DNA from: Fibrobacterota bacterium
Lineage (GTDB): Bacteria; Fibrobacterota; Chitinivibrionia; Chitinivibrionales; Chitinispirillaceae
Assembly (NCBI GenBank): GCA_003164335.1
Contig: PLTF01000019.1
Coordinates: forward strand, 224-64,223
Reading direction: 5' to 3'
Length of the DNA stretch: 64,000 nt
In this document: piece after piece, positions 22,820 to 63,789 of the stretch
Position numbering within the stretch: position 1 is the stretch's first letter
Layout of the letters: every line of letters starts with the position of its first letter
Position numbers and translations under genes: made by a program
Notes under the pieces: generated by a model
What the model saw: the letters and a program-made list of their open reading frames with translations, nothing else
What the model was told of the DNA's origin: nothing
Databases searched by the model: none

Positions 22820-23227
22820 GGTGGGGGAACCGCTTAGGCGGTTCCCCCTGGCCAAAGCCTCCGCGCCCGCAAAGCCGGGCTGCGGGGTCTTTGGCACACC
22901 CCCTCCAGCAGGGGGCCGCGAGCGATGCCCGCCTTAGGCGGGCGCTCTCGGCCCCCCGCAACGCCCCCATTAGGTAGAAAGAACACGAAAGATTTTATAA
23001 ACCCGTAGGGGGGATCTGCGGTCGCCCAGTTCATTCAATATCAATTTTCCACCATCATTGCCTTGCCCTGAATTTCTACCTCATGTGAGCGTTGCGGGAG
23101 TACGAGGGCGCCTGCTGAGCAAAGCGAGGCAGGCATAGCCTCGTACTTCCGCTGGAAGGGGTGAGTCGGAGACGCGGCTTTGCGCGGCTCCGACCAGGGG
23201 GAACCATTTTTTTATGGTTCCCCCACC
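22820..23227. repeat. Inverted pair of about 160-bp multi-hairpin units
   Basis: Left unit 22820-22980 and right unit 23073-23227 (inverted) share order and motifs: GGTGGGGGAACC-loop-GGTTCCCCCTGG, a second hairpin with loop CGCAAAGCCG, CACCCC..TCCAGC, a third hairpin with ATGCCYGCC and GGC..GCGC, then CCCGCAACGC and GGTAGAAA. Stem bases differ between units but pairing is kept (CCAAAG/CTTTGG versus GTCGGAG/CTCCGAC; CGAG..CTCG versus GTACGAGG/CCTCGTAC). The 92-bp spacer has no ORF or structure that I can see. Confidence 0.8.
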
Positions 23228-61300: not shown

Positions 61301-61334
61301 GGTGGGGGAACCGCCAATTGGCGCTTCCCCCACC
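61301..61334 (+). terminator. Hairpin after the GT39 gene (GGTGGGGG family)
   Basis: GGTGGGGG-aacc-GCCAATTGGC-gctt-CCCCCACC, a 34-bp near-perfect palindrome. Its arms are the GGTGGGGGAACC module also found at 22820 and 23227. No T-run, so termination may be partial. Confidence 0.6.
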
Positions 61335-61436
61335 TGAGCGGTACCCAATATTCGACCGATTTCCGCTTCCTGAACAATTCCGGTAATATCTTACTTTCTG
61401 TCCCGTAGTTTTGATGAAGGATGAGTAGCAGTAGTG

Positions 61437-63234: not shown

Positions 63235-63265
63235 AAAAAAAAGGCCTGCGATGGTATCGCAGGCC
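63235..63265 (-). terminator. Rho-independent terminator of the cold-shock gene
   Basis: On the minus strand GGCCTGCGAT-acc-ATCGCAGGCC, a perfect 10-bp stem, is followed by at least eight T. It lies 25 nt after the csp stop. Confidence 0.9.
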
Positions 63266-63290
63266 CACATATGCATAATGATCGGAGTAA

Positions 63291-63494
63291 TTAAAGCGGC
63301 GTTACGTTCTGTGCGTTTGGACCCTTCGCGCCATCAACCACTTCGTACTGCACCTTCTGACCTTCATCCAACTTCTTGAACCCAGATGACTGGATTGCGG
63401 AAAAATGGACGAATACATCCCGGGAACCATCGTCCGGAGAAACGAATCCGAAACCTTTGGCTTCATTGAACCACTTAACGACGCCTGTTGGCAT
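63291..63494 (-). CDS. cspA: Cold-shock domain protein
   Basis: 67 residues, OB-fold RNA chaperone. RNP1 [11 protein letters not shown] and RNP2 DVFVHFSAI are intact; the start [14 protein letters not shown] is the normal family start, so a 28-residue in-frame extension is rejected. A long leader upstream contains a GGCATTTTTTTATGCC hairpin (about 63576-63591), in keeping with the structured leaders of csp messages. A strong terminator follows. Confidence 0.95.
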
Positions 63495-63639
63495 ACAGCA
63501 AACCTCTTCTGAAAAATGAAAGAATGTAGATATCACGAGGATATCCGATAACAGGAAGAAGATAGTATATGCCGGCATAAAAAAATGCCAGGACAGGTAT
63601 AACTTTTCGCCGGCGCCCTCCGGTATCGAATGCTGTCCA

Positions 63640-63789
63640 TTAAAAGGTGCTGCTCCCGAAAGAGCGGTGGGCCATGCGGGTTGCGTTTATCGCCAGTGAA
63701 ATCAGGGTCTTTCCGTCGGATTCCCGGCAGCGGACCTCACCGCAAAGGTCGTAAGAGCCGGGAACCGGCTTCGGGTTCGCTTTCTTCAT
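63640..63789 (-). CDS. Small hypothetical protein upstream of csp
   Basis: 49 residues from the ATG at 63789, which has GGAGGT four bases upstream; a longer in-frame start lacks a ribosome site. Basic N-terminus ([14 protein letters not shown]), a CGEVRC motif with Cys at about 16 and 20, then [22 protein letters not shown]. It may be a small zinc or nucleic-acid binder; no family recognised. It reads towards csp, 145 bp upstream of the csp start. Confidence 0.6.

Follow-up and report, generated by a model that had tools for sequence, protein, structure and literature searches.

The window analysed here, a 64,000-nucleotide stretch of a Fibrobacterota contig, contains an inverted pair of structured units (~410 bp in all) that is very probably a mobile element. 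We consider it likely that the pair represents a non-autonomous, oversized relative in kind of the REPIN and BIME repeats, that is, a mobile DNA element whose movement relies on an enzyme provided in trans, perhaps a RAYT. It is one member of a dispersed, intergenic and gene-free family with at least 150 copies in the host genome. Few kinds of gene-free mobile DNA are as common in bacteria as repeats of the REP, REPIN and BIME types; to our knowledge, the mechanism by which they spread is still unsettled.

Each unit is laid out as a first hairpin, H1 (GGTGGGGGAACC...GGTTCCCCC), a second hairpin, H2, an unpaired linker (CACACCCC[CT]TCC[AT]GC), a third hairpin, H3, and a tail (CGCAACGCNCNCATTAGGTAGAAA). 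The outer ends of the element (GGTGGGGG) point out and the tails (GTAGAAA) point in (Table 1). The first-pass annotation of this DNA had described two facing units of ~160 bp across a 92-bp spacer, and they are present as it described them, at ~155-160 bp; the conserved unpaired or loop motifs that it named are common to both units (CGCAAAGCC, CACCCC[CT]TCCAGC, CCCGCAACGC and GGTAGAAA), as is the outer hairpin GGTGGGGGAACC/GGTTCCCCCTGG, and its observation that two inner stems are unlike in sequence and still pair holds for uL and uR. Outside the GGTGGGG of the outer ends, a short semi-conserved stretch recurs (GCCYTTT or ACTGCYCA), so the true ends of the element may lie ~10 nt further out. 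Table 1 also gives the coordinates of other features observed in the window.

Table 1. Coordinates, in the window, of the inverted pair, its parts and other features
Feature	Positions	Strand	Support or remark
Left unit, uL: three hairpins and conserved tail, long H2 type	22820-22980	+	Covariance model R1, 168.7 bits, E 1.5e-34; fold z -7.4
uL hairpin H1, GGTGGGGGAACC-GCTTAGGC-GGTTCCCCCTGG, the element's outer end	22820-22851	+	Pairs conserved or compensated, 138 copies
uL hairpin H2, long type, GCCAAAGCCTCCGCGCCCGCAAAGCCGGGCTGCGGGGTCTTTGGC	22851-22895	+	Fold and covariation
uL unpaired linker, CACACCCCCTCCAGC	22895-22909	+	Near-invariant between genera
uL hairpin H3, variable stem	22908-22959	+	Many double compensatory changes
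uL conserved tail, CGCAACGCCCCCATTAGGTAGAAA	22957-22980	+	
Spacer separating the two tails, 92 bp	22981-23072	.	
REP-like palindrome within the spacer, GTAG-tagged, GTAGGGGGGATCTGCGGTCGCCC	23005-23027	+	Oriented as uL
Right unit, uR: three hairpins and tail, short H2 type	23073-23227	-	Covariance model R1, 144.8 bits, E 2.3e-29; fold z -8.3
uR hairpin H3	23094-23152	-	
uR hairpin H2, short type, TCGGAGCCGCGCAAAGCCGCGTCTCCGA	23165-23194	-	
uR hairpin H1, outer end	23194-23227	-	
GTAG-tagged REP away from units of the family, GTAGGGGCGACCCTGTGCGGTTGCCC	37225	+	
GTAG-tagged REP away from units of the family, GTAGGGGCAACCCTATGTGGTTGCCC	41547	-	
Fragment of ~35 nt, H1 only (GGTGGGGGAACC hairpin)	61304-61338	-	No remainder of the unit
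cspA thermoregulator	63238-63641	-	Rfam, 82.7 bits vs cut-off 78

The stems of the units are held by compensating changes. Among 31 host copies, 21 of the 38 predicted pairs have changed doubly with pairing kept, and once 8 copies from other genomes are added to host copies, both sides have changed in 27 of 50 pairs; both alignments were made with MAFFT and with no structure supplied, and the structure scored on the 50 pairs was derived from that same alignment. The covariation score of the latter alignment was 0.273, compared to 0.112 in shuffled versions (none of 500 reached it), and it was at most 0.092 when partner columns were slid by 1-3 positions. Over 138 host copies, in an alignment that was fitted to the model and therefore leans towards it, 93% of cells (5587/6002) are Watson-Crick pairs, and the variable pairs switch from one Watson-Crick type to another with almost no intermediates (e.g., TA in 54 copies, AT in 44, GC in 26 and CG in 7). 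The selection on structure that was proposed from the window alone is thus supported by covariation both within the host genome and in related genomes. The GC content of the units is high (0.61 and 0.73), and it had been allowed from the start that their stems might be chance palindromes of such a composition, with no further copies and no covariation. This reading, to which we now give practically no credence, is already refuted by the large number of copies, by the covariation and by the folding scores of Table 1, which are relative to dinucleotide shuffles (0 of 200 folded as well).

Several smaller regularities accompany the folds. In the tails of the host genome (G000), the 5-mer that follows CGCAACG (CTCAC, CTCCC, CCTCC, CCCCC or CCCTC) varies in step with the foot of H3, from which it looks copied; the two do not evidently pair. 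An insert of ~75 nt recurs in the loop of H1 (L028, L031 and L190) and another of ~95 nt, CTCACCCCGGCCCAAAGCGGCCGGACCTCTCC..., in the loop of H3 (L167, L197, L201, L160 and L192), and because these two recurrent inserts occur inside hairpin loops the units are modular and nested. A 33-nt module, GGTGGGGGAACCGAGCTTAAATCAAATGCCTTT, precedes many of the host copies (e.g., L009:131-196, C12:31616 and C136:13058); it repeats half of H1 and is sometimes present twice.

The covariance model (R1), built from 23 copies, gave the count of at least 150 significant copies in the 3.8-Mb host genome (weakest listed copy, E 6e-9), in which a DNA search gave 98 matches. Seven of 126 copies overlap a gene predicted from our own open reading frames and the remainder are intergenic. 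The distribution within the order is patchy: copies are present in 11 of 40 genomes and absent from most, with 55 in G025 and 32 in G031 (two genomes of one other genus in another family), 9 in G027 and few elsewhere. Across 168 genomes of the phylum, matches were concentrated in the order of the host, and the five single weak matches outside it (E ~1e-7), such as the singles in family f8, may be due to chance. A degenerate DNA pattern found matches in many phyla and in five viral contigs of an 84,980-species collection; among the pattern matches listed, the covariance model confirmed only those of the Fibrobacterota genomes G025 and G036. A covariance-model search of this genome and its relatives, which the first-pass annotation had recommended, has thus revealed further copies in both, and its remark that it knew no named family of such a layout agrees with our searches: Rfam, at gathering and at relaxed thresholds, gave no family (the best match was gyrA RNA, at 24.6 bits vs a cut-off of 45), and the family is undescribed within Rfam and the literature searched. 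In G027, four near-identical copies (L053, L059, L062 and L066) lie at contig ends and have 40-60 nt of upstream flank in common, which suggests a recent amplification that broke the assembly.

The inverted arrangement seen in the window prevails among downstream neighbours. Within 600 nt beyond a tail, the nearest unit is inverted in 47 cases and points the same way in 6, compared to 1 inverted and 6 same-way for the nearest unit upstream. The pair in the window lies between genes for a flippase-like LPG_synthase_TM protein and an AAA_3/MoxR-like ATPase, which are adjacent in 12 relatives (gaps mostly of a few to ~40 nt, the longest ~260) and stand 506 nt apart in the host. A second pair (L140, in G000:C17, 988-1652) separates the genes for the alpha and beta subunits of fumarase, with a gap of 665 nt as compared to -7 to 50 nt in 19 relatives; genes of one operon can therefore end up with such an element between them. 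To judge from these comparisons of gene order, the inverted pair behaves as a single insertion, placed between genes that adjoin each other elsewhere. By the criteria used, the majority of copies stand alone, and such single units are probably decayed pairs. No target-site duplication was seen in 17 pairs, nor any excess of direct repeats, and old copies could have lost theirs.

The partners of a pair differ from one another. The H2 stems were of differing types, as assigned by eye, in 20 of 21 scored pairs (permutation p 0.037), and over whole units the identity between partners was 0.793 vs 0.821 for randomly matched units (p 0.00065). This bears on the possibility that the pairs are MITE-type remnants of a classical DDE insertion sequence whose terminal inverted repeats are long and structured, and that a DDE transposase moves them in trans, as the tail-in inverted ends, the gene-free centre, the location in intergenic DNA and the good conservation of the outer ends GGTGGGGG among copies would suggest. 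The ends of DDE elements are normally near-identical, however, and those of the pairs are ~79% alike, less than random units; what is conserved is base pairing over 160 nt and not a short terminal box, the 17 pairs are without target-site duplication, and no DDE gene recurs near copies, although some other genome may carry the autonomous parent. We therefore think a DDE origin unlikely.

When folded with DNA parameters, actual pairs hold ~40-70% of the unit base pairs inside the units, and artificial pairs with identical partners place every base pair between units. Because identical partners fold into one long hairpin, unequal stems let each unit keep its own fold. Selection may lie behind the heterotypic pattern; alternatively, homodimers may simply disappear through the instability of long hairpins. 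Many REP families also prefer heterodimers, with no obvious explanation given (Di Nocera and colleagues, PMC3733652), and the present family offers a measurable reason for this preference, namely that two partners of the same sequence would fold up together as a single long hairpin.

It had been left open by the first-pass annotation whether the selected object is a structured RNA or a single-strand DNA substrate of a transposase or integrase. A structured RNA that has spread through the genome, whether located in the 3' ends of mRNAs or made as separate small RNAs, would accord with the strong covariation and with the position of 74 of 117 copies, which by our own gene predictions have at their outer end a gene on the copy's own strand, most of them within 75 nt of its stop codon. 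The other 43 copies face the opposite way, however, 15 copies lie between divergent genes, and since the pairs are inverted one partner is always antisense. Wobble pairing also fails to single out a strand: G-T deviations are wobble pairs of one strand and A-C deviations those of the opposite strand, and over 138 copies the two number 136 and 152, or ~50 and 57 when the three most biased columns are left out. The jumps of variable pairs between Watson-Crick types, with few wobble intermediates, and the want of an Rfam match at gathering score point the same way, and the difference in folding energy between the strands (-7.0 kcal/mol) is within the range of shuffles (-4.8 +/- 4.8). Two narrower ideas were discarded along with these results: a 3'UTR element, prompted by the tight spacing behind stop codons, failed on orientation, and a preference for the minus strand, prompted by a mismatch in H3 that is A-C on one strand and G-U when read from its opposite, did not hold up when all 138 copies were counted. 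Because gene orientation and wobble pairs favour neither strand, folding as DNA explains the element better than folding as RNA. The results on orientation, wobble and energy argue against a strand-specific RNA as the object of selection, which we regard as highly unlikely, and copies that lie behind stop codons may still be transcribed.

Of the two readings first offered, it is accordingly the DNA that is favoured. Under the proposed mechanism, each unit would act as folded DNA, either single-stranded at the replication fork or as a cruciform, and the folded unit would be recognised by an enzyme supplied in trans; the unequal stems of the partners would keep each unit self-folding, as opposed to a collapse into one 160-bp hairpin. 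A transposase carrying the same ends, which the first-pass annotation had thought worth looking for, was not found, so that the role of the units as transposase substrates is one that we infer. A recombination site that is folded in the manner of integron attC and acted upon by a tyrosine integrase would likewise be expected to have large, imperfectly paired hairpins in which unpaired bases are conserved, as these units do. However, neither a cassette array nor captured open reading frames are present, the copies are scattered and paired tail-in, and no integrase gene recurs beside them, all of which makes this explanation extremely improbable.

By analogy, the enzyme that mobilises the favoured DNA element may be a RAYT-type Y1 HUH transposase, which we name tentatively. 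It is the likeliest class because RAYT genes of the order have inward multi-hairpin inverted ends, because GTAG-tagged REPs sit at fixed positions relative to the tails, and because target-site duplication is lacking. The host has two families of GTAG-tagged REP-like palindromes (67 and 36 members), and 31 of these 103 (21 and 10, respectively) are found no more than 200 nt beyond a tail on its downstream side, where ~0.8 would be expected, compared to 1 upstream; 23 of the tail-linked REPs are oriented as the unit, mostly at 18, 25-27 or 43-49 nt. One host RAYT (L009, 205 aa) scores above the cut-off for Pfam Y1_Tnp and has REP_Tyr_transpos as its best NCBIfam match, below cut-off; a perfect inverted pair of GTAG REPs of the second family (24 nt) flanks the gene. 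In relatives, several Y1/RAYT genes have inward multi-hairpin inverted ends of 86-159 nt (L245, L246, L249, L252, L254, L256 and L271), unlike REPs as usually described, which are short. The sequences of these ends differ from those of the units described here (A units hereafter), and the loci have the architecture of an A pair that contains a gene. A longer class of Y1 genes (open frames of ~250-500 aa; L260, L264, L268, L344, L345, L348, L351, L352 and L360) is flanked by inverted repeats that share GGGACGG, and resembles the TIRtrons of PMC3733652.

Y1 genes were compared by presence over 40 genomes and inspected at 54 loci, and none of those examined lies between A ends; nor was any other transposase gene found in such a position, and no gene family, transposases and integrases included, was found to recur beside copies. 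The number of Y1 genes is unrelated to the number of copies, one relative with 13 matches having no element and the host having 4 weak Y1 matches together with its at least 150 elements. The case for a RAYT is thus one of analogy, backed by the linkage to REPs. The reading frames of one long tail-in interval of G025 include no evident transposase. The GTAG of the host tails is not kept elsewhere (GGTATG and GGAATG in other genomes), and the GGTAGAA of the host tails is on the 3' side of the hairpins, which is the wrong side for a REP.

Other structured ends occur near A units in the relatives. In G025, an inverted end of a different multi-hairpin type (CGTTAGG...CGCCCA or GGGGGAAGTTTCCCCCTCGCTTC...) often lies 70-300 nt beyond an A unit; across G025 and G031, two other multi-hairpin end types (CGTTAGG...CGCCCA, GTGGGGGAAGTTTCCCCCTCGCTTC...) face A units at L057, L060, L061, L072, L089, L100, L113 and L117, and L064 holds an apparent chimera. 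The A family may thus belong to a wider set of structured ends in the phylum. It is conceivable, if on balance unlikely, that the family represents a new class of mobile DNA, in which the ends would be recognised by their folded three-hairpin shape and not by their sequence, the stems of the two inverted ends would have to differ for each end to fold by itself, and the mobilising enzyme would be an undescribed one of Fibrobacterota that also handles the other multi-hairpin ends of G025.

The element that we favour, REPIN/BIME-like and moved in trans, can be compared with several known systems. The family magnifies the REP/REPIN/BIME architecture several-fold per unit and is larger and more complex than the known repeats; within the literature searched, no such repeats have been described in Fibrobacterota, and the copies are numerous enough for base-pair statistics, with clean empty sites that define the insertion. 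REPINs are REP doublets that form hairpins, as in the GI type, the 16-mer ends of which are 71 bp apart (Bertels and Rainey 2011, PMC3116915). Like the A pairs, they are inverted palindromic units around a spacer that are inserted as a unit, are extragenic, gene-free and of high copy number, and show compensatory changes, and their singlets are interpreted as remnants. The A units differ in being ~160 nt long with three hairpins, as compared to one short, single-hairpin REP, in having heterotypic partners, and in that no cognate RAYT has an A unit on both sides in the loci examined, the RAYT of L009 having GTAG REPs instead. GTAG/CGTC-tagged REPs are 20-40 bp long, with one stem of 5-13 bp, and favour sites between unidirectional and convergent genes (PMC3733652). 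They resemble A units as extragenic palindromes that form dimers, frequently heterodimers, and a GTAG REP lies inside the A element; the A unit, with its three hairpins, has no conserved GTAG/CGTC tag 5' of a stem, and the preference of REPs with respect to gene orientation is not clearly seen for it. In TIRtrons, TIR repeats flank Y1 (TIRYT) genes, and Pseudomonas REPs are found joined to unrelated stem-loops (PMC3733652, Figures 8-9). The likeness lies in the longer inverted ends beside Y1 genes, which are also dispersed repeats, and in the joining of a REP to unrelated stem-loops, whereas A ends enclose no Y1 gene in the genomes examined, the multi-hairpin ends around such genes being of other sequence. 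Bacterial MITEs such as ERIC, NEMIS and RUP (70-300 bp, with TIRs of 15-30 bp; PMC3733652) are, like the A pairs, gene-free, intergenic and structured, with inverted ends, but in the A family the repeat takes up the entire 160-bp end, one partner diverges from the other, and duplicated targets were not observed. Because both the single short stem and the GTAG/CGTC tag at its foot are missing, we have classed the family with the REPIN/BIME kind and not as a REP.
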